Assembly: GCF_041320275.1 (NCBI RefSeq)
Contig: NZ_CP162023.1
Span: forward strand, 2,170,001-2,234,000
Direction of reading: 5' to 3'
Length of the DNA: 64,000 nt
From: Mumia sp. Pv4-285
Lineage (GTDB): Bacteria > Actinomycetota > Actinomycetes > Propionibacteriales > Nocardioidaceae
Positions 9,889 through 24,367 of this stretch are shown in pieces. The stretch's first letter is position 1. Every line of letters begins with the position of its first letter. The position numbers were made by a program, and so were the translations under genes. Below the pieces are notes generated by a model. It saw nothing but the letters and a program-made list of their open reading frames with translations, had not been told where the DNA came from and did not search any database.

Positions 9889-9921
9889 GGGGCGCCTCCG
9901 GACCTCGTCCGGAGGCGCCCC
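9889..9921 (+). terminator. Terminator hairpin after the sugar ABC operon
   Basis: Perfect 14-bp stem GGGGCGCCTCCGGA / TCCGGAGGCGCCCC with a CCTCG loop. No T-run follows, which is usual in actinobacteria. Its 3' arm abuts the first CCCAAG repeat of the SARP-type site. Confidence 0.75.
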
Positions 9922-9946
9922 AAGCCGTTCCCAAGCGTTCCCCAAG
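9919..9946 (+). promoter_or_regulatory. SARP-type triple direct repeat upstream of the MMPL gene
   Basis: CCCAAG occurs at 9919-9924, 9930-9935 and 9941-9946, an exact 11-bp period. Hexa- or heptamer direct repeats with 11-bp spacing are the known recognition pattern of OmpR-fold SARP regulators such as AfsR and ActII-ORF4. The same array, followed by the same TGG, recurs at 15692-15719. The adjacent SARP gene is the obvious candidate binder. Confidence 0.7.
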
Positions 9947-9995
9947 TGGTCACCGCGAGGCTCCTCTCCGTCAGACAGACGATTGAGGAGCACAG

Positions 9996-12188
9996 ATGTC
10001 CAGCCTGCTTTACCGCCTCGGCCACACGACCGCGGCTCACCCGTGGCGCACGATCTGCGCCTGGGTCGTCGTCCTCGTCGGTGTCCTCGCCCTCGCCGCG
10101 AGCGTCGGCGGCACCTTCCAGGACGACTGGGACGTACCCGGAGCCGAGGGCCAGACCGGCCTCGACCAGCTGCGCGCCCACATGCCCGACGCCGGTGGTG
10201 CGAACGCACTGATCAGCGTCCACGACGCCGAGGGCGACCGGATCCCCGCCAGCGACCTGGATCGCCTCGCCGAGCGGGTCGGCGACGTCCCGCACGTGAT
10301 CGGCGTCTCCGCACCGCGGCTGTCTGAGGACGGCGACACCGCCTTGATGTCGGTCCGGTACGACGTTCCTGTCACCCACGCCGACGTGATGGGAGAGCTG
10401 GCGCCGCTCGAGGACGCCGTCGACGAGGCGGCGCTGGGGGACGTGAAGGTCGACTTCGGGGGAGAGGTCCCCGGGACGGCGATGGAGATGAACGGGCGCG
10501 GTGAGCTGATCGGGGTCGGCGTCGCTCTCGTGCTGCTGGTGCTGACCTTCGGCTCGGTGGTGGCCGCGGGGCTCCCGATCGCCGTCGCGCTCTTCGGTCT
10601 GGCGCTCGGGTCGGCCGGCGTCACCCTGCTCGCCGCGACCACGAACGTCAGCAACGACGCTCCGACCGTCGCCACGATGGTCGGCCTCGGTGTCGGCATC
10701 GACTACGCGCTCCTGCTCGTGACCCGGTTCGTGGAGTTCCTGCGGGCGGGGCACGGCCGGGCCGCTGCCGCCGGGCATGCCACCGCGACGGCGGGCCGAG
10801 CCGTGCTCTTCGCGGGGCTGACGGTCCTCGTCTCGCTGATGGGGCTCGGACTTGCCGGACTGCCGACGTACTCGGCGTTCGGCATGGCGACCGGCATCAC
10901 GGTTCTTGCGGTGATGGCGGCTGCCCTCACGCTCGTGCCGGCGCTGTGCGGGCTCGCGGGCCACCGCCTGGTGTCGCGCAAGGCCCGCCGGGGCGCGGTC
11001 AGCGACCCGGACCGTACGACCTTGACCGCCCGGTGGGCCGCACGTGTCGGCGCCCGGCCCCTGCCGTGGGCGCTGGCGGCGCTCGTGGTCATGGTCGCGC
11101 TCGCTGCTCCCGCGCTCGGGATGCGGACGTTCCCGCAGGACGCCAGCGCCGAGCCGACGAGCTTCACGACGCGTCAGTCGTACGACGTGGTGGCTGACGA
11201 GTTCGGTCCGGGGGCGAACGGCCCGTTGACCTTCGTCGCCGATCTGGACACCGTGGACGACAGAGACCTCGACCAGCTGCGGGCGACGCTCGCCGACGAC
11301 CCACGGATCGTCGCGGTGGGGGAGCCGGTGACCTCCGCGGACGGAGCGATCGCGGTGTTCGACGCACAGCCGGCGTTCGGTCCCCAGGACGAGCGCACGA
11401 CCGACCTCATCACGTCGATGCGTGCGGACGTCCTGCCCGCCGGTGTGGCACTGACGGGGACGACGGCGATCCTCACGGACATCTCGGTGATGCTCTCCGA
11501 GCGGATCTGGGTCGTGGTCGGGTTCGTGGTGCTGCTTTCGATGATCCTGCTCGCGGTGATGTTCCGGTCGGTCGTCGTCCCGCTGAAGGCCGCCGCGATG
11601 AACCTGCTGTCGATCGGCGCCGCGTACGGCGTGGTGACGCTCGTCTTCCAGCACGGCTGGGGGCTGTCCCTGCTCGGGATGGACCACACCGTGCCCGTGT
11701 CGAGCTGGGTGCCGATCCTCACGTTCGCGATCCTGTTCGGGCTCTCGATGGACTACGAGGTGTTCCTCCTGTCGCGGATCCGCGAGAGCTGGCTGCGTAC
11801 CGGTGACGCCCGAGGATCCGTCGTGGCGGGTCTCGCGAGCAGCGCGCGCGTCATCTCGAGCGCTGCGGCGATCATGGTCGCGGTGTTCATCGGGTTCGCG
11901 ACCGAGTCGGCGGTGACCGTGAAGATGCTGGGTGTCGCGATGGCGGCCGCCGTCGCGCTCGACGCCACGCTCGTGCGCCTCGTCCTCGTGCCGGCGACGA
12001 TGACGATGCTGGGCCGCTGGAACTGGTGGCTGCCGGCGTGGTTGGACCGCATGCTGCCGCACGTCCGGATGGAGCCGGCCGACGTGCCGGTCGCCGAGCC
12101 GTCGTCCGGCCAGGCCGATCAGCAGGACGAGCCGGACGAGGCGAGCGAGGTCGACGAGCTCGGCGAGGGCCAGCCCGTACGCGGCTGA
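9996..12188 (+). CDS. MMPL-family (RND-type) exporter
   Basis: 730 aa. Two repeated halves: a first membrane segment (residues about 20-42), a large extracytoplasmic loop starting FQDDWDVPGAEGQTG, then a five-to-six-helix bundle with TMVGLGVGIDYALLLVTRF carrying the Asp-Tyr motif of MMPL proton relays. The pattern repeats in the C-terminal half with FAILFGLSMDYEVFLLSRI. These proteins export lipids, polyketide or lipopeptide products, or drugs. There is an acidic, Glu/Asp-rich tail of about 40 residues. The gene follows a SARP-type repeat array and converges with the SARP gene. It may export whatever the nearby oxidoreductase helps make, but no biosynthetic core enzyme is present. Confidence 0.92.
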   Translation: MSSLLYRLGHTTAAHPWRTICAWVVVLVGVLALAASVGGTFQDDWDVPGAEGQTGLDQLRAHMPDAGGANALISVHDAEGDRIPASDLDRLAERVGDVPHVIGVSAPRLSEDGDTALMSVRYDVPVTHADVMGELAPLEDAVDEAALGDVKVDFGGEVPGTAMEMNGRGELIGVGVALVLLVLTFGSVVAAGLPIAVALFGLALGSAGVTLLAATTNVSNDAPTVATMVGLGVGIDYALLLVTRFVEFLRAGHGRAAAAGHATATAGRAVLFAGLTVLVSLMGLGLAGLPTYSAFGMATGITVLAVMAAALTLVPALCGLAGHRLVSRKARRGAVSDPDRTTLTARWAARVGARPLPWALAALVVMVALAAPALGMRTFPQDASAEPTSFTTRQSYDVVADEFGPGANGPLTFVADLDTVDDRDLDQLRATLADDPRIVAVGEPVTSADGAIAVFDAQPAFGPQDERTTDLITSMRADVLPAGVALTGTTAILTDISVMLSERIWVVVGFVVLLSMILLAVMFRSVVVPLKAAAMNLLSIGAAYGVVTLVFQHGWGLSLLGMDHTVPVSSWVPILTFAILFGLSMDYEVFLLSRIRESWLRTGDARGSVVAGLASSARVISSAAAIMVAVFIGFATESAVTVKMLGVAMAAAVALDATLVRLVLVPATMTMLGRWNWWLPAWLDRMLPHVRMEPADVPVAEPSSGQADQQDEPDEASEVDELGEGQPVRG

Positions 12189-12194
12189 CCTGCG

Positions 12195-15100
12195 TCAGAA
12201 CCCGTACGCGTCCCGCTGGTGGAGGAACCATCCCTCCACCAGCGGGATGTTCCATGCCTCGATCAGGGCGAGAGCGTCGTCGGCGTGGTGCGCGGCGCGC
12301 TCGAGGTCTCCCGTCGCAGCGGAGGCGAGGGCCAGATAGGCGTCCACGGGTCCGAGCGCCATCGTCGATCCCGCACTGAGCACGCCCCCGGCCAGCGGCG
12401 CGAGCCGGGTGTAGGACGTCGCGGCGACGTCGGGCAGGTCGAGCGCGAGCGCGACCTCGGCGCCGAAACCCCAGATCATGGGCGCGATCCAGCTGTCGTC
12501 GTCGATCGTCGGCGAGGTCCGCTGGTACAGCGCGCGCGCCTCGTCGATCCTGCCGCGGCGGACGAGGAACCCGGTCGCCGCCATGTGGATCGGGACGACG
12601 GCCGTCCGCACGAGCGCGTCGAGCGCGCTGTCGGCGCGGTCGCCGTCGTCGTCCTGGTCCGCGCCGCGCCAGATCGCCAGCACGAGCATGAGACCGCTGA
12701 GCGCGTCGTACTTGTGCGGGACGGCGATCGTGTCGACCACCCGCAGCAGCTCGTCGAGGGAGTCACGGGCGGCGTCGAGGTCGCCGCGCATCGCGAGCCA
12801 CGGGATGCGCATGCAGTCGAGGAACCACAGCGTGTACGGCAGTTGGAGCTCGCGCGCGATCCGGCGTCCTCGCTCGAGGTCCTGCTCCATCTCGGCGACG
12901 AGACCGAGGTCGCTGCGAGCGGTGGCCCGCTGGGCGAGGGCGATCGCCTCGACCCGGCGGTCTCCGACCCGTCCGGCGAGCGAGAGTGCCTCGTCGGCGA
13001 GCGTCAGCCGCTGGCGTGCCGTCCACGGGTGCCAGATCGCGATGAACGCCGCCGTGCACATGTCCATCAGGAGGGCGTCGTCACCCAGGCGCCGCGCCAT
13101 GTCGAGCCCGTCCGTGACCAGCTGCTGGCACTCCTCCTCGCTGGCCGTGTAGTACAGCTCGTTCGCGAGGCTGATCAGCAGCGTGCACCGGACCGGTGAG
13201 TCCTCGACCGGGAGCGCCTCGAGCGCGCGGCGCTGGGCGCCGACGATCGTGTCGCTGGTCTCGCCGAACGACCGTGTCTGCCACAGCGCACCCCGCGTCG
13301 TCGCGACCGCCGCCCGGGCGAGCAGGGCGGTGTCGCCCAGCGCGTCGGCGACCCCGATCGCCTCCTCGACGGCGTCGGTGAGCTCGTCCCACCGGGCCGC
13401 CCACCGTGCGGCGTCGGCGAGTGCGAGGAGCAGCTCGTACCGGTCGCCCGGGGACGCGTCGGGATCCATGTCGATCCGGGTCAGCGCGAGATGGAGCAGG
13501 TCCGCCGCCTCGTCGTAGCCGTGCCGCTGCTGCGCCGCGAGCGCCGCCCGGTACGCCGAGGTCCAGGCCTGTGCCGCGTGGTCGGCGCCCGCCTCGGCCC
13601 AGTGCCGTGCGATCTCGGCCACCCGCGCGGACGCGTGGCGACCGTCCGCGAGCGTCCCGGCGATCCGCGCATGCACGCGCTGGCGACGCGACGGCGACAA
13701 GGACGCGTAGACGGCGTCGCGCACGAGCGCGTGGGAGAACCGGAAGCGGTCGTCGCCCTCGTCGCGCAGCATCCCCGCCGCGGTGGCCGGCTCGAGGTGG
13801 TCGAGGACGTCGAGATCGGTCAGTCCGGTGCTCGCCATCACGGTCGCCAGGTCGAAGCGGCGACCGACGACGGCGGCGTGCCGGAGGACGTCGAGGGTCG
13901 GCTCGGGAACGGCGCTGAGCCGGCGGCGTACGACGTCGGTCACGGCGGTCGGCGGCTCGGCGTCGAGGCTGCCCTCGTCTCCGAGCAGTCGCGCGTACTC
14001 GACCACGAAGAACGGGTTGCCCTCGGTGCGGTCACGCATGGTGGCGGCCGTGGCTTCCGCGACCGGGTGGTCCGCCATCGCTTCCAGCACCCGCGCGGTG
14101 TCGGCGACGGTCAGGCCCTGGAGCCGTACGGTCGCCGCGTGGCGTCGCGCGAGGGTCTCCATGGTCTCCGCGAGCTGGCCGGTCGGCTCGGGGTGCGCTC
14201 GCATGGTGACGAGGACGAGGAGCCGCGCCCGGTCGGCGATCGTGCACAGGTGCCGGAGGACGCGCAGCGATGACGGGTCGGCCCACTGGAGGTCGTCCAG
14301 CGCGACCACGACCGTCTGGTCGGCGGCGGCCGAGAGCAGCTGCCGGCAGATGTGGTCCCAGGCCGCGAAACGGCCTCCGTCGGGATCCGCGGCGTCCGGG
14401 CCGGCTTCCCTCACGACGCTGCCGATGCCGGTCAGCACCGACTCCCACGGCCACAGCGGCGGCGCGCCGCGGTCGGAGGAGCACCGGCCGACGAGAACGT
14501 GCGCCCCGCGCGCCCGAGCCCGGGCCATCAGCTCGGCGACGAGCCGCGACTTGCCGATCCCGGGCTCGCCCACGACGGACGCGAACTGCGGCTCGCCGGC
14601 GTCGGCCACGTCCAGCCTGTCGAGCAGCTCGTCGAGCTCGTCGTCGCGGCCCACCATCGGCCAAGGAGGGAGCGTCGGAAGCCGGTGCTCCGACCGGGGG
14701 AGCGGTGGATCGGCGGGCTCGGGCGCGGTTGGCGTCGCCGACGGGGGCGCCGCCGCGGCCACCGTGGCGGTGACACGCTGTTCCGCCCAGGCGACCAGCG
14801 GATCCTGGCGCAGGATCGCGGTCTGCGTGTCACGCACCAGCGCTGTCGGCTGGAGGCCCAGCTCCTCGTCGAGCGTCTCGGTCAGTCGCCGGACGACGTC
14901 CAACGCGTCGGCCTGTCGGCCGGTTCGGGCGAGCGCGACCGCGCGCAGCGTCCACAGGCGTTCGCGGAGCGGGTGCTGGGACGAGAGCGACTCCAGCTCT
15001 GCCGCGACCGTCGCGTGCTCACCCTGGGCGAGCCGGACGACCGCGAGGTCCTCCAGCCCGACGAGCCGCAGCTCGTCGAGCCGGCCACGCTCGGCCATCG

Positions 15101-15596
15101 CCTGAGGATGGTCGGCCAGCTCGTCGTACGCGCGCCCGCGCCAGGTCGCGGTCGCCGTCTCGAGGTCGTGCCTGATCTGCTCGAGCACCTCGTCGTCGAG
15201 CACGCCCGCCCCAGGGATCGCGTCCCGCGCGAGCGGACCGAGCGCTCGGTGTGCGGACTGAAGGAGCGCGATCGTCGCGGCCGCGTCGACCGTCACGCTG
15301 CTCGCGTCGAGGACGTACCCGCCCCCGGTCGTCCTCAGTGGCAGCGCCTCGCCCGGCCCGAGCGCGGTGCCGAGCGCTCGACGCAGGCCCGAGACGTACG
15401 ACTGGAGGGTGCCGAGGGCGCCGTCGGGTGGGGTGTCACCCCACAGGTAGTCGATCAACGTGTCGACGCTCTGGACGTTGCCGACCCCGAGAGCGAGCGC
15501 AGCGAGCAGGACGCGGTGCTTGCGCGTCCCGAGCGCGACCGGCGGCGATGCCTGCTCGCGGTACGCCTCGACCGGGCCGAGGACTGCGAGCCACAT
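12195..15596 (-). CDS. SARP/AfsR-type transcriptional regulator with ATPase and TPR domains
   Basis: 1133 aa. Domains in order: OmpR-type winged helix (about 1-98; RKHRVLLAALALGVGNVQSV and GTLQSYVSGLRRALG), bacterial transcriptional activation domain (about 100-265; RAVALARTGRQADALDVVRR), a Pro/Ala linker, AAA_16 ATPase (about 313-520) with Walker A GEPGIGKS (343-350) and Walker B VVVALDD (429-435), then a long helical TPR-like region to the C-terminus. This is the large-SARP/LuxR-hybrid layout of regulators of secondary metabolism and export genes. The start is ATG at 15596; TATGCT at 15609-15604 ends seven bases before it, which would give a nearly leaderless mRNA. It lies between its two presumed targets, each preceded by 11-bp CCCAAG repeats. 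Confidence 0.9.
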   Translation of the reverse strand: MWLAVLGPVEAYREQASPPVALGTRKHRVLLAALALGVGNVQSVDTLIDYLWGDTPPDGALGTLQSYVSGLRRALGTALGPGEALPLRTTGGGYVLDASSVTVDAAATIALLQSAHRALGPLARDAIPGAGVLDDEVLEQIRHDLETATATWRGRAYDELADHPQAMAERGRLDELRLVGLEDLAVVRLAQGEHATVAAELESLSSQHPLRERLWTLRAVALARTGRQADALDVVRRLTETLDEELGLQPTALVRDTQTAILRQDPLVAWAEQRVTATVAAAAPPSATPTAPEPADPPLPRSEHRLPTLPPWPMVGRDDELDELLDRLDVADAGEPQFASVVGEPGIGKSRLVAELMARARARGAHVLVGRCSSDRGAPPLWPWESVLTGIGSVVREAGPDAADPDGGRFAAWDHICRQLLSAAADQTVVVALDDLQWADPSSLRVLRHLCTIADRARLLVLVTMRAHPEPTGQLAETMETLARRHAATVRLQGLTVADTARVLEAMADHPVAEATAATMRDRTEGNPFFVVEYARLLGDEGSLDAEPPTAVTDVVRRRLSAVPEPTLDVLRHAAVVGRRFDLATVMASTGLTDLDVLDHLEPATAAGMLRDEGDDRFRFSHALVRDAVYASLSPSRRQRVHARIAGTLADGRHASARVAEIARHWAEAGADHAAQAWTSAYRAALAAQQRHGYDEAADLLHLALTRIDMDPDASPGDRYELLLALADAARWAARWDELTDAVEEAIGVADALGDTALLARAAVATTRGALWQTRSFGETSDTIVGAQRRALEALPVEDSPVRCTLLISLANELYYTASEEECQQLVTDGLDMARRLGDDALLMDMCTAAFIAIWHPWTARQRLTLADEALSLAGRVGDRRVEAIALAQRATARSDLGLVAEMEQDLERGRRIARELQLPYTLWFLDCMRIPWLAMRGDLDAARDSLDELLRVVDTIAVPHKYDALSGLMLVLAIWRGADQDDDGDRADSALDALVRTAVVPIHMAATGFLVRRGRIDEARALYQRTSPTIDDDSWIAPMIWGFGAEVALALDLPDVAATSYTRLAPLAGGVLSAGSTMALGPVDAYLALASAATGDLERAAHHADDALALIEAWNIPLVEGWFLHQRDAYGF
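12212..12246. terminator. Bidirectional terminator inside the 3' end of the SARP gene
   Basis: CCCGCTGGTGGAGG and its exact reverse complement form a 14-bp stem with a 7-nt loop. The hairpin sits 24-58 bp beyond the MMPL stop and codes for part of the C-terminal residues of the convergent SARP gene. One structure could therefore end both transcripts. Confidence 0.6.
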
Positions 15597-15691
15597 GGCT
15601 CAGAGCATAGGTCGGACGGAGGTTCCGGACGTTGCTTTTCACCGCGCCGAGAGGCGGTCCCTCCGTGCTCGCGAGCCATGCCCATGCCGTC

Positions 15692-15719
15692 CCCAAGCCG
15701 ATCCCAAGGACTCCCCAAG
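15692..15719 (+). promoter_or_regulatory. SARP-type triple direct repeat upstream of the flavin oxidoreductase
   Basis: CCCAAG at 15692-15697, 15703-15708 and 15714-15719, again with exact 11-bp spacing and again followed by TGG. The array lies between the divergent SARP gene and the oxidoreductase, in the same orientation relative to the latter as the copy at 9919-9946 has to the MMPL gene. Confidence 0.7.
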
Positions 15720-15792
15720 TGGGCAGGCGCACGGTGGTTCTCGTTCATCGACGCGCCGACAGAGAGGTCGGCCACGGAAGCAAGGAAGCACC

Positions 15793-17190
15793 ATGACCAC
15801 ACTGACCGACACGATCGCGACCCGACCGAGTCGTCATGACGAGCCCGCCGACGTCGACTTCGACGCTCTTCGGGCGCAGATCGGCACCCGTCTCGTCCGC
15901 CCCGGTGACCCCGGGTGGAACGAGGTCAGCCTCGCCTGGAACCTCGCCGTCGACCAGTCGCCCTGCGCGGTCGTCCTGGCCGAGAGCGCCGACGACGTGG
16001 CAGCCGCCGTACGGTTCGGCCGTGCGTTCGACATCGCCGTCGCGCCGCAGGCCAGCGGTCACGGGGCCTCTGCCAGGCTCGCCGGCAGCATCGTGGTCCG
16101 CGGGACCGGCCTCGACGTGATCGACGTCGACGTGATCGCACGCACCGCGCGAGTTGGCGCCGGCGTGCGCTGGGGGGCGCTTCAGGCAGCGCTCGACGGC
16201 ACCGGGCTGACCGGCATGATCGGCTCGAACCCCGACGTCTCGGTGGTCGGATACACCCTGCAGGGCGGCTACTCGTGGTTCACCCGCCCCTTCGGGATGG
16301 GTGCGGACTCCCTGCGCTCGGCCGAGATCGTCGATGCGGACGGCGTCGTACGACACGTCGACGACGACACCGACCCCGGGCTCATGTGGGCACTTCGCGG
16401 TGGTGGCGGCAACGTCGCCTACGTGGCGTCGGTGGAGATCGACCTCCACCTGGCCCCGGCCATCGCCGGCGGTCGCATGCTGTTCCCGATCGCCGACGCG
16501 CGCAGCGTCCTGAACGCGTTCGCGCAGGCGACTGCCGCCGCTGGTGACGCGATCTCGCTGTGGGCCTCGATCGTCCACGTCCCGAACCTCGACTTCATGC
16601 CGGAAGAGGTGCGCGGCCAGTCGTTCGTCGTGGTGGAGTCCTGCACGGCGGAGGGACTCACCGGGCTCGAGCGGGCGCTCGCGCCGATCCGTGCCGCCGG
16701 CGTGCTCGTGTACGACACGGTGCGCGAGCGGACCGCGTCGGAGGTCGGCGACATCTGCGAGGAGCCCATCGACCCCATGCCTGTGGCCCACCACGGGATG
16801 GCGCTCGGTGAGCTGACGCCGACCGCGATCGATGCGCTGCTGGCGGTGGCCGGCAGGCCCGGCGCGATCCTCCAGGTGCAGGTACGTCACCTGGGGCCGT
16901 CGCGAACCGCACGTCGCTCGGGCCTCATGACCGAGGTTCCGTCCGAGTACATTGCCGTCGCGCTCTCGCTGCTGCCCGACCCGGGACTCGAGCCGATGGT
17001 CCGCGACGCCTTCGCGGAGGTCGCCGCGGCACTGCGGCCCTGGAGCGCCGGCGCCGTCGGATCGACCTTGGTGTCCGCGTGGGACACGCTCGACCGCAGC
17101 ACCTCGTACGCCGACCGCGAGCGGCTCGCCGACGTGATTGCGGAGCACGACCCGACGGGCGTGTACCGCGCAGCCGTCGGCCTCTCCTGA
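15793..17190 (+). CDS. FAD-dependent oxidoreductase of the BBE/6-hydroxynicotine-oxidase family
   Basis: 465 aa. The FAD-binding type-4 (PCMH) domain occupies about residues 40-215: CAVVLAESADDVAAAVRFGR, then PQASGHGASARLAGSIVVRG with His in the position used for 8-alpha covalent FAD attachment, and GYTLQGGYSWFTRPFGMGAD. The second, 6-S-cysteinyl attachment Cys seen in bicovalent members is absent (GGYSW). The C-terminal berberine-bridge-like segment ends with TSYADRERLADVIAEHDPTG, shorter than canonical. Such enzymes oxidise sugars, alkaloids or polyketide intermediates. The ATG at 15793 follows AAGGAAG. The upstream SARP repeat array suggests co-regulation with the MMPL exporter. Substrate unknown. 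Confidence 0.85.
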   Translation: MTTLTDTIATRPSRHDEPADVDFDALRAQIGTRLVRPGDPGWNEVSLAWNLAVDQSPCAVVLAESADDVAAAVRFGRAFDIAVAPQASGHGASARLAGSIVVRGTGLDVIDVDVIARTARVGAGVRWGALQAALDGTGLTGMIGSNPDVSVVGYTLQGGYSWFTRPFGMGADSLRSAEIVDADGVVRHVDDDTDPGLMWALRGGGGNVAYVASVEIDLHLAPAIAGGRMLFPIADARSVLNAFAQATAAAGDAISLWASIVHVPNLDFMPEEVRGQSFVVVESCTAEGLTGLERALAPIRAAGVLVYDTVRERTASEVGDICEEPIDPMPVAHHGMALGELTPTAIDALLAVAGRPGAILQVQVRHLGPSRTARRSGLMTEVPSEYIAVALSLLPDPGLEPMVRDAFAEVAAALRPWSAGAVGSTLVSAWDTLDRSTSYADRERLADVIAEHDPTGVYRAAVGLS

Positions 17191-17328: not shown

Positions 17329-18591
17329 GTGACCACCCACGTCCTGGACGACCTCGAGGCGCGCGGACTCGTCGCGCACTCGACAGACCGTGACGCCCTG
17401 CGCGCCGATCTGTCCGCGGGGCCGGTCACGTTCTACGTGGGCTTCGACCCGACGGCCCCCAGCCTCCACATGGGCAACCTTCTCCAGCTGCTCACCGCCC
17501 GGCGGCTGCAGCTCGCGGGTCACCGGCCGCTGATTCTCGTCGGTGGGTCCACCGGCCTGATCGGCGACCCGCGGGACGTGGGGGAGCGGACGATGAACAG
17601 CCGCGAGACCGTCGCCGACTGGGTCGACCGGATCCGGTCGCAGGTCGAGCAGTACGTGTCGTTCGAGGGCGACAACGCCGCGCGGGTCGTCAACAACCTC
17701 GACTGGACGAAGGACGTCAACGTCATCGACTTCCTCCGTGACGTCGGGAAGCACTTCCCGGTCAACCGGATGCTCGACCGCCAGGTGGTCGCGAGCCGCC
17801 TCGAGACGGGCATCAGCTACACCGAGTTCAGCTACGTCCTGCTCCAGTCGATGGACTACCTGGAGCTCTACCGCCGGTACGGCACCTCGTTGCAGACCGG
17901 AGGCAGCGACCAGTGGGGCAACATCACCGCAGGCGTCGAGCTGATCCGGCGCGCCGAGGGTGCCAAGGTCCACGCGCTGTCCACGCCGCTGATCACGAAG
18001 GCGGACGGGACCAAGTTCGGGAAGTCGACGGGGGGAGCGCTGTGGCTCGACCCGGAGATGCTGTCGCCGTACGCCTTCTACCAGACCTGGATCCAGGCCG
18101 AGGACTCGAAGGTCGTCGAGTACCTACGCCAGTTCACCTTCCTCGGTCTCGACGAGATCGAGGAGATCGCCGCCGAGTCCGCCGAGCGCCCCGGGCTCCG
18201 CATCGCCCAGCGCCGACTCGCGGCGGAGGTGACTGCGCTGGTGCACGGGCAGGACGAGGTGACCGCTGCCGAGCAGGCGTCCGCAGCGCTGTTCGGCAGG
18301 GCGGAGCTCGTCGATCTGCCGGAGTCGACCCTGCGGGCCGCCCTCACGGAGGCCGGCTTGGTGACGGTCGAGAGCGGTACGCCCCTGGTGGACGCCTTCG
18401 TGGCCGCGGGCCTCGTCGACAGCAAGTCCGCCGCGCGCCGCGCGGTCAACGAGGGCGGTGCCTACGTCAACAACGTCCGTGTCGAGGACCCGGACACGAC
18501 GCTCGACGGGCAGCACGCCCTCCAGGGCGGGCTGGTGGTCCTCCGCAAGGGCAAGAAGTCCGTCGCGGGGGCCGAGCTGGCGAGCGCGTGA
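17329..18591 (+). CDS. tyrS: Tyrosyl-tRNA synthetase
   Basis: 420 aa class I aminoacyl-tRNA synthetase charging tRNA-Tyr. Signature 1 is PSLHMGN (HMGN 47-50, a HIGH variant). The KMSKS-type loop is K229-FGKS in KADGTKFGKSTGG. The tyrosine pocket region YTEFSYVLLQSMDYLELY and GGSDQWGNI are typical. An S4 RNA-binding domain follows at about 355-415 (SKSAARRAVNEGGAYVNN). The GTG at 17329 follows GAGGAG with good spacing. It directly precedes the rrn operon and is followed by its own hairpin. Confidence 0.97.
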   Translation: MTTHVLDDLEARGLVAHSTDRDALRADLSAGPVTFYVGFDPTAPSLHMGNLLQLLTARRLQLAGHRPLILVGGSTGLIGDPRDVGERTMNSRETVADWVDRIRSQVEQYVSFEGDNAARVVNNLDWTKDVNVIDFLRDVGKHFPVNRMLDRQVVASRLETGISYTEFSYVLLQSMDYLELYRRYGTSLQTGGSDQWGNITAGVELIRRAEGAKVHALSTPLITKADGTKFGKSTGGALWLDPEMLSPYAFYQTWIQAEDSKVVEYLRQFTFLGLDEIEEIAAESAERPGLRIAQRRLAAEVTALVHGQDEVTAAEQASAALFGRAELVDLPESTLRAALTEAGLVTVESGTPLVDAFVAAGLVDSKSAARRAVNEGGAYVNNVRVEDPDTTLDGQHALQGGLVVLRKGKKSVAGAELASA

Positions 18592-18621
18592 CCGGTCTGT
18601 CCAGACATGTCCGAGACGTCC

Positions 18622-18658
18622 GTGGGGCCCGTCGTCGCGTTGCGCCGGCGGGTCCCAC
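18622..18658 (+). terminator. Terminator hairpin after tyrS
   Basis: GTGGGGCCCG pairs with CGGGTCCCAC (10 bp, one G-U) around a 17-nt loop, 30 bp after the tyrS stop. Confidence 0.55.
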
Positions 18659-18727
18659 GTCTTCGGCCCCAAAACGCCATCTGACCTGCAGAAACGGCAC
18701 TTGTGACCCAGGGCACATCGCCTCGAT

Positions 18728-18756
18728 TTGACCGCCTGTTTACCTCCGCGTAGTGT
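18728..18756 (+). promoter_or_regulatory. Candidate rrn promoter
   Basis: TTGACC (18728-18733), a 17-bp spacer and TAGTGT (18751-18756) form a near-consensus vegetative promoter about 335 bp upstream of the 16S gene. A weaker pair TTGGGG / TAGGTT with 17-bp spacing lies at 18856-18884. Multiple promoters in this position are normal for actinobacterial rrn operons. Confidence 0.6.
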
Positions 18757-18948
18757 TCTTCTTGTTGCCGGGGACGGCGGTGGGCAAGGCCTTGTGGGTC
18801 GGGTTCGCGGTCCTGGTTGACTTATCTTCCTTCTCTTTCGGAGTCACCGCCCTGTTTGGGGTGTTGTGGTTGTTCTGGTAGGTTGGGGGGTCGCGCCTTG
18901 GTCTGGGGTCTCCTTGTGTGGGGGGTTCTGGGTTTTGTGTGTCTGATG

Positions 18949-18968
18949 TTTGAGAACTCAACAGTGTG
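18949..18968 (+). promoter_or_regulatory. rRNA leader antitermination/processing box
   Basis: TTTGAGAACTCAACAGTGTG is the conserved leader element found before 16S genes of high-GC Gram-positives. A diverged copy, TTTGAGAACTTCACAGTGG, occurs before the 23S gene at 20962-20980. Confidence 0.7.
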
Positions 18969-18992
18969 TTAAAAGTCGACGAGATAATCAGT

Positions 18993-19033
18993 ATGACCTG
19001 TTTGGTCATTTTTCCGTGACAAATTATTTGTCA
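18993..19033 (+). other. Two hairpins in the rRNA leader, one terminator-like
   Basis: ATGACC-TGTTT-GGTCAT (18993-19009) is followed at once by TTTTT, the form of an intrinsic terminator. Then TGACAAA-TTA-TTTGTCA (19017-19033) is a perfect 7-bp dyad. This stretch is AT-rich compared with its surroundings. The first hairpin would need antitermination to be passed, or may be a processing structure. Confidence 0.5.
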
Positions 19034-19089
19034 GCAAATAGTTAGTCCGGGTTTGAAGTTTTTGTTGTGCCCAGCTTTTGGTTGGGTTT

Positions 19090-24127
<5,038 letters not shown>

Positions 24128-24191
24128 TACACACACTTCAACGACACTCAAATGCGTCCACTGTGAGGTTCTGGGACCACAACCCAGAACC
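24128..24191 (+). other. 23S processing stalk, 3' arm
   Basis: Complement of 20947-21006; contains GCGTCCACTGTGA and CCACAACCC, which pair with the 5' arm. Confidence 0.75.
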
Positions 24192-24239
24192 AAAACAAAA
24201 TAGCAACACCATGTTTTGGTCCAGTTGTAACCCCACAGG

Positions 24240-24357
24240 GTTACGGCGGCCATGGCGAAGGGGAAACACCCGGCAACATTCCGAACCCGGAAGTTAAGCC
24301 CTTCAGCGCCGATGGTACTGCACGGGAGACTGTGTGGGAGAGTAGGACGCCGCCGGA
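24240..24357 (+). rRNA. rrf: 5S ribosomal RNA
   Basis: About 118 nt: GTTACGGCGGCCATGGCGAA at the 5' end, CCGAACCCGGAAGTTAAGCC in loop B/helix III, and AGTAGGACGCCGCCGGAC at the 3' end closing helix I with the 5' GGCGGC. It lies about 110 nt after the 23S gene. Confidence 0.95.
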
Positions 24358-24367
24358 CAACACTTCA

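Follow-up and report, generated by a model that had tools for sequence, protein, structure and literature searches.

Repeat arrays flanking a large SARP gene in Mumia as probable operators of an exporter and an oxidase gene

In a 64,000-nucleotide stretch of the Mumia sp. Pv4-285 genome (contig NZ_CP162023.1, positions 2,170,001 to 2,234,000; hereafter the window), the gene for a large regulator of the SARP family lies between genes for an MMPL-family exporter and a BBE-type FAD-linked oxidoreductase (the oxidase below), both preceded by three direct repeats of CCCAAG. The two arrays are very probably operators of the SARP encoded between them, through which exporter and oxidase would be switched on jointly, in place of the antibiotic gene cluster that the name of the family would lead one to expect. 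An earlier reading of the window from its letters alone (the sequence-only reading) had proposed both genes as direct SARP targets, and this is now supported by comparison, namely by the uniqueness of the arrays and by conserved operators in relatives, not by experiment. The arrays, their uniqueness, the promoter geometry, their conservation and their decay where regulator or target is missing are read from the DNA itself; binding by the SARP, activation rather than repression, the signal and a detoxification role are what we infer.

Repeat arrays and promoter geometry in Mumia

Array 1 (9919–9946, + strand), the proposed operator of the exporter gene, and array 2 (15692–15719, +), that of the oxidase gene, each consist of CCCAAG repeated three times with a period of exactly 11 bp, point toward the gene downstream and are followed by TGG, all as first described. 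They had also been called identical, which holds for the repeat units and not for the spacers (CCGTT and CGTTC versus CCGAT and GACTC). An imperfect fourth unit, CCCATG (15681–15686, +), stands in register with array 2. The trailing TGG was considered as part of the site and rejected, being unconserved in relatives. When the pair pattern was allowed up to 2 mismatches, the window gave 7 matches where shuffled sequence gave 3.0 on average; five belong to the arrays and the other two are unrelated 2-mismatch sites.

A scan for further targets, suggested earlier together with the caution that the pattern might be frequent elsewhere, was run on the source genome (a single contig of 4,649,352 bases) with the reversed pattern as control, and only the two arrays were found. 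The exact pair CCCAAG-N5-CCCAAG occurs four times genome-wide, always in the two arrays (reversed control, 1), and the triple at up to 3 mismatches gives five matches, all overlapping them (reversed control, 6). Because triple matches are confined to the two arrays, nothing further stands out in this genome, and comparison supports, at the pattern level used, a putative SARP regulon of two promoters. The six Mumia genomes searched contain 15 exact pairs, each of them upstream of an MMPL or BBE homologue (reversed control, 7). The triple at up to 3 mismatches is found 24 times there (reversed control, 26), 18 times at the locus and six times elsewhere; the six off-locus matches have 3 mismatches each and none is in the source genome.

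Array 1 is recognisable in all six Mumia genomes, with 0 mismatches in four, and array 2 is perfect in three (the source genome, G005 and G001) and decayed in G004. This last genome keeps the SARP gene and has no oxidase orthologue: its best match is 30% identical, against 66–88% in four other relatives, and by eye the start of tyrS occupies the oxidase position. The presumed remnant of array 2 there reads CCGAG-CCGATC-CCGAG, one A per core being changed and the third unit lost. Since array 2 has decayed in a genome that lacks the oxidase and keeps the SARP, the array appears to track the oxidase, not the SARP. In G002 the 6.8-kb contig with the SARP and oxidase genes does not include the exporter, which is on a different contig and may or may not be their neighbour.

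The promoter geometry was read from 48 arrays upstream of MMPL or oxidase genes (37 from the family and 11 from Mumia, including the window). Counted from the last G of the array, C or G stands at +11 in 46 of the 48, A at +12 in 45 and T at +16 in 45. The element starting 10 bases past the array is, as predicted from these positions, a [CG]ANNNT −10 that regularly lacks the first T, and no −35 is evident upstream of it by eye. In the window, −10-like hexamers read from the sequence follow each array by 10 bp: GAGGCT (9957–9962, +) ahead of the exporter ATG at 9996, and CACGGT (15730–15735, +) ahead of the oxidase ATG at 15793, the latter comparable to CACTGT of afsS, described as a suboptimal −10 in the accessible part of PMC10936776. 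The same part of that source places the 3′ repeat of SARP promoters 8 bp from the −10 and the repeats 11 or 22 bp apart. Here the −10 starts 10 bp past CCAAG, that is, 8 bp past a heptamer CCAAGNN (a frame that we chose), so that the predicted geometry matches that of published SARP promoters and follows their spacing rule.

A strong hairpin (9889–9921, +) with a 15-bp stem (−39 kcal/mol when three further outer pairs are counted) ends within the first repeat of array 1, and similar inverted sequences are seen by eye in G005, G002 and G004. It may be a terminator of the upstream sugar-type ABC transport genes that shares bases with the operator.

Arrays across the Nocardioidaceae and beyond

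A protein search with the SARP matched 48 of 245 family genomes at E ≤ 1e-150. All 59 non-Mumia places that this search listed were taken as homologue loci of 16–20 kb each, the choice being made by protein alone. They contain 39 non-overlapping arrays of CCAAG x3 at an 11-bp period with up to 2 mismatches and 62 with up to 3, against means of 0.5 (maximum 2) and 11.9 (maximum 19), respectively, in 20 dinucleotide shuffles. As the excess is smaller at the looser threshold, our counts rest mainly on the stricter one. At that threshold 37 of the 39 arrays are directed at a gene for an MMPL, FAD-oxidase or hemerythrin protein that lies no more than 150 bp downstream (47 of 62 at up to 3 mismatches), the 150-bp space upstream of these three target types amounting to 0.53% of the two-strand sequence. 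A target-facing array is present in 33 of the 59 loci at up to 2 mismatches and in 43 at up to 3. For MMPL and oxidase genes alone, sought with the window proteins, 37 upstream arrays (up to 3 mismatches) were found in 34 of the loci.

The signal is specific to the 11-bp period. At up to 2 mismatches, period 11 gave the 39 arrays, periods 7, 8, 10, 13, 14, 16, 17, 19, 20 and 23 gave 0–2, and period 22 gave 4; multiples of 3 (6 to 24) gave 5–15. Because multiples of 3 carry a coding background, the comparison for period 11 was made with the other periods and with permuted cores. The second-best permuted core, CAAGC (20 arrays), amounts to CCAAG displaced by one base, and the two are not independent. 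Coding periodicity was rejected as the source of the arrays by both comparisons.

The hemerythrin class was unforeseen and was read from the genes behind the arrays, with three members confirmed by Pfam. In ten loci, a SARP-type array next to the SARP gene is followed by a gene of about 240 aa whose product has a conserved N-terminal part, LPGQ...GPxD (L060, L080, L086, L094, L100, L103, L106, L107, L113 and L115); the two such proteins that were scanned (L086 and L103) are both hemerythrin-domain proteins, and at other loci a homologue lies directly downstream of the MMPL gene. Fifteen of the 62 arrays have no target of the three types. Six open reading frames (ORFs) downstream of such arrays, from L096, L101, L102, L111 (two) and L115, gave in that order DUF7379/Ig-like, RCC1-repeat, no match, Big_3_5, PD40 and no match. 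The DUF7379/Ig-like, RCC1-repeat, Big_3_5 and PD40 genes stand behind arrays in the more distant SARP loci L096, L101 and L111, and their products are perhaps surface or secreted proteins. On a quick SARP tree of 65 rows, the type of neighbouring gene clusters, although it still changes 20 times in all (shuffled mean 38.6).

Genomes in which regulator and exporter are separated bear on the same link. In G120 the exporter and oxidase genes are adjacent with no SARP gene between them, and the whole genome (99% complete) gave no SARP match at E ≤ 1e-20, the same search giving one match each in two congeners. Compared with three congeners, G120 shows changes in two of the three cores of its exporter array and in every core of its oxidase array. 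Six exporters of SARP-bearing genomes are unlinked from the SARP, and an array is retained by three of them (G219 and G052 with 0 mismatches, G043 with 3). Other exporters, like that of G120, are without a close SARP. The G179 exporter has no array, and the best SARP match of that genome is weak (E 6e-70) and unlinked; the G142 exporter has a 4-mismatch array with a weak SARP homologue (33%) beside it. The G063 exporter is cut by a contig end and is uninformative. Overall, 38 of 42 exporter-bearing genomes also have the SARP (hypergeometric p 2e-30, or 2e-26 without Mumia), values that are uncorrected for shared ancestry, come from two samples that differ (245 and 241) and use arbitrary cut-offs.

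Beyond the family, 16 of 117 genomes of the order match the SARP at E ≤ 1e-120, including six that belong to two other families, and 8 of 98 genomes of the class match at E ≤ 1e-100. Among 14 distant loci, for eight of which the flanks reach only about 1.5 kb, five have an array at up to 3 mismatches and nine have none. The arrays of L195 and L200 point at an FAD-oxidase gene, and L201 has a 2-mismatch array facing the SARP gene from about 450 bp. The putative link between array and target is well supported inside the Nocardioidaceae and uncertain beyond it.

The regulator, its neighbours and related systems

The SARP gene (12195–15596, − strand) encodes 1133 aa, with an OmpR-type winged helix at the N terminus (PF00486, residues 24–95, E 1e-6, above cut-off), a BTAD domain after it (PF03704, residues 133–262, E 6e-28), an AAA-type nucleotide-binding domain (PF13191, residues 314–461) and predicted C-terminal helical repeats. 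The Walker motifs are intact, GxPGIGKS and LDDLxWAD being invariant across five aligned sequences. The protein had been described as SARP-ATPase-TPR: the SARP and ATPase parts stand and the TPR part does so partly, all Pfam TPR models falling below cut-off. The predicted structure has paired helices over about residues 673–1131, with many ten-residue blocks at a confidence score (pLDDT) of 70–91; it is a low-confidence model with an overall mean of only 61 and values below 50 in the winged helix. The closest named homologues are from Mumia xiangluensis and M. quercus.

Beside the SARP gene lies the MMPL-family (RND-type) exporter gene (9996–12188, +; 730 aa; Pfam MMPL, E 4e-74), whose match to the NCBIfam actII subfamily falls below the model cut-off. 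The oxidase gene (15793–17190, +; 465 aa; Pfam FAD_binding_4) encodes a protein whose best solved relative is mitomycin radical oxidase (9r43_A, E 3e-51). Twenty further window ORFs, 19 of them drawn from 35 picked by script and together a subset of those in the window, were scanned against Pfam; one had no match and none belonged to an antibiotic-biosynthesis cluster family. The scanned ORFs do not place the SARP as a pathway-specific regulator inside a biosynthetic cluster. At 17329–24360 the module adjoins tyrS (by Pfam) and an rRNA operon (by eye), a neighbourhood that may account for nearby breaks in draft assemblies, such as the split of SARP and exporter between contigs in G002.

EmbR (PDB 2fez and 2ff4, which we take to be structures of the Mycobacterium tuberculosis protein) is the best solved match of the N-terminal part of the SARP, which also matches solved AfsR; the EmbR match covers residues 5–281 (E 3e-27) and stops short of the half with the ATPase and helical repeats. 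The AfsR protein of Streptomyces coelicolor, whose target is afsS (PDB 8hvr, 8jke and 8k60), shares the winged helix, BTAD, nucleotide-binding domain and predicted helical repeats, together with 11-bp direct repeats just upstream of a weak −10 (CACTGT, as against CACGGT at Mumia array 2; PMC10936776, accessible part). It differs in acting on antibiotic production and in its site, given in the accessible part of PMC10972967 as two CGTT(T/C)ATCGNN repeats, against three CCAAG in Mumia; moreover, the Mumia protein scores 122.5 bits against the AfsR equivalog NF053617 of NCBIfam, whose cut-off is 1430. The SARP-LAL regulators of the PimR type (PimR, FilR, SanG and PolR) share a large C-terminal ATP-binding half and an operator in the promoter of a neighbouring gene, which for PimR consists of three CGGCAAG heptamers with 4-bp spacers (PMC5930380, accessible part). 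Mumia likewise has three heptamers with 4-bp spacers, which read YCCCAAG in place of CGGCAAG, both ending in CAAG. According to the same part of that source, PimR controls one regulator gene in a polyene cluster from an operator that does not overlap the −35, whereas in Mumia the proposed targets are exporter and oxidase genes, and the scanned ORFs show no cluster. The same absence of antibiotic-cluster families among those ORFs sets the oxidase apart from mitomycin radical oxidase (PDB 9r43) and EncM, its nearest solved relatives over nearly the full length.

Alternatives, mechanism and meaning

Several observations weigh against joint control of exporter and oxidase by the SARP. Array 1 has 2 mismatches in G001 and 1 in G004, and array 2 has 3 in G003 and 2 in G002. 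In 16 of the 59 family loci, none of the three target types is preceded by an array at up to 3 mismatches; 11 of these 16 have a weak candidate with 4 or 5 mismatches within 250 bp upstream of a target. Three of the six SARP-unlinked exporters have not kept the array (G199 has a 4-mismatch version; G209 and the second G231 copy have none that is convincing), and at distant loci L192 and L194 the array lies beside a hemerythrin gene and faces away from it. The hemerythrin search set was built from array-bearing genes, so that position and array are not independent in that class; the cases of loss are one genome each (G004 and G120), and the detoxification role is read from gene families alone.

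That the repeats might be a chance or structural feature of the DNA devoid of regulatory meaning is extremely unlikely: the 2-mismatch pair pattern does arise by chance in the window, but within the six Mumia genomes exact forms occur only at this locus, and the excess of arrays in relatives (39 against 0.5 expected) is specific for the 11-bp period and for position. Another SARP or a different regulator could bind the arrays, the neighbouring large SARP being a bystander. A first look at G000 gave 31 candidate regions with related domains, and within the Nocardioidaceae the SARP paralogues of a given genome resemble one another in their operators. We consider this unlikely, as matches at E ≤ 1e-60 are limited to one place per Mumia genome, the arrays of relatives were found via homologues of this very SARP (43 of 59 loci carrying them), and G120, which is SARP-less at E ≤ 1e-20, keeps both targets and yet has lost core bases from both arrays.

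Efflux genes are often controlled by repressors, and the SARP might bind the arrays and repress both genes until a signal releases them. One SARP of medium size, Atr32, is a negative regulator according to the accessible part of PMC10972967; the spacing of the arrays to a suboptimal −10 is, however, that described for activator SARPs, which makes repression a quite improbable reading. The sequence-only reading had further placed array 2 to influence the SARP gene itself. An array serving mainly for autoregulation, with the oxidase only incidentally affected, would suit its position in a 196-bp divergent intergenic region and the array facing the SARP gene at L201 (one of 14 distant loci). That proposal found no support, and we regard it as very improbable: none of the 62 family arrays at up to 3 mismatches faces a SARP start within 300 bp in the 59 loci, the three-unit array starts 96 bp from the SARP ATG, and array 2 has decayed in G004, where the SARP is kept and the oxidase orthologue gone. 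The SARP gene also has a predicted −10-like element of its own, TATGCT (15604–15609, −), found by eye 7 nt before the ATG and the same in five of six Mumia genomes, a position that suggests a leaderless SARP transcript.

Under joint activation by the SARP, which is proposed by analogy with AfsR, neighbouring protomers would occupy successive CCAAG direct repeats, with one protomer to each helical turn. The 3′ repeat would position the SARP next to RNA polymerase at promoters whose −10 ([CG]ANNNT) is weak, and the exporter and oxidase promoters would be activated together. The signal probably enters via the half that has the ATPase and the helical repeats; it is probably a small molecule of toxic nature, which the exporter would remove and the oxidase alter. 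This protective output is suggested because the exporter is of the MMPL family, the oxidase is nearest to mitomycin radical oxidase and other loci hold hemerythrin.

Known already are the class of protein, the type of repeat and the geometry of the promoter; a branch of SARPs that acts on efflux and redox genes through a CCAAG operator was not found in the open-access literature searched. A wider and distinctly tentative reading is that a widespread branch of large SARPs in the Propionibacteriales might consist of one-protein sensors of toxic small molecules, acting through CCAAG x3 operators on one or two promoters of an exporter and a redox protein outside antibiotic clusters. The exporter would be MMPL, often in tandem with hemerythrin, and the redox protein an FAD oxidase or hemerythrin. 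As the putative operator can be read from sequence alone, targets of uncharacterised Nocardioidaceae SARPs become predictable genome by genome. With its two promoters the module would also be a compact system in which to study what is sensed by the ATPase and repeat half of large SARPs, and it draws attention to exporters and oxidases possibly acting on unknown toxic compounds. Descriptions of SARPs deal mainly with the switching of Streptomyces antibiotic clusters, and here a branch appears to control efflux and oxidation genes directly; if this is true, the control of antibiotics by SARPs may be one specialisation of a broader protective use.

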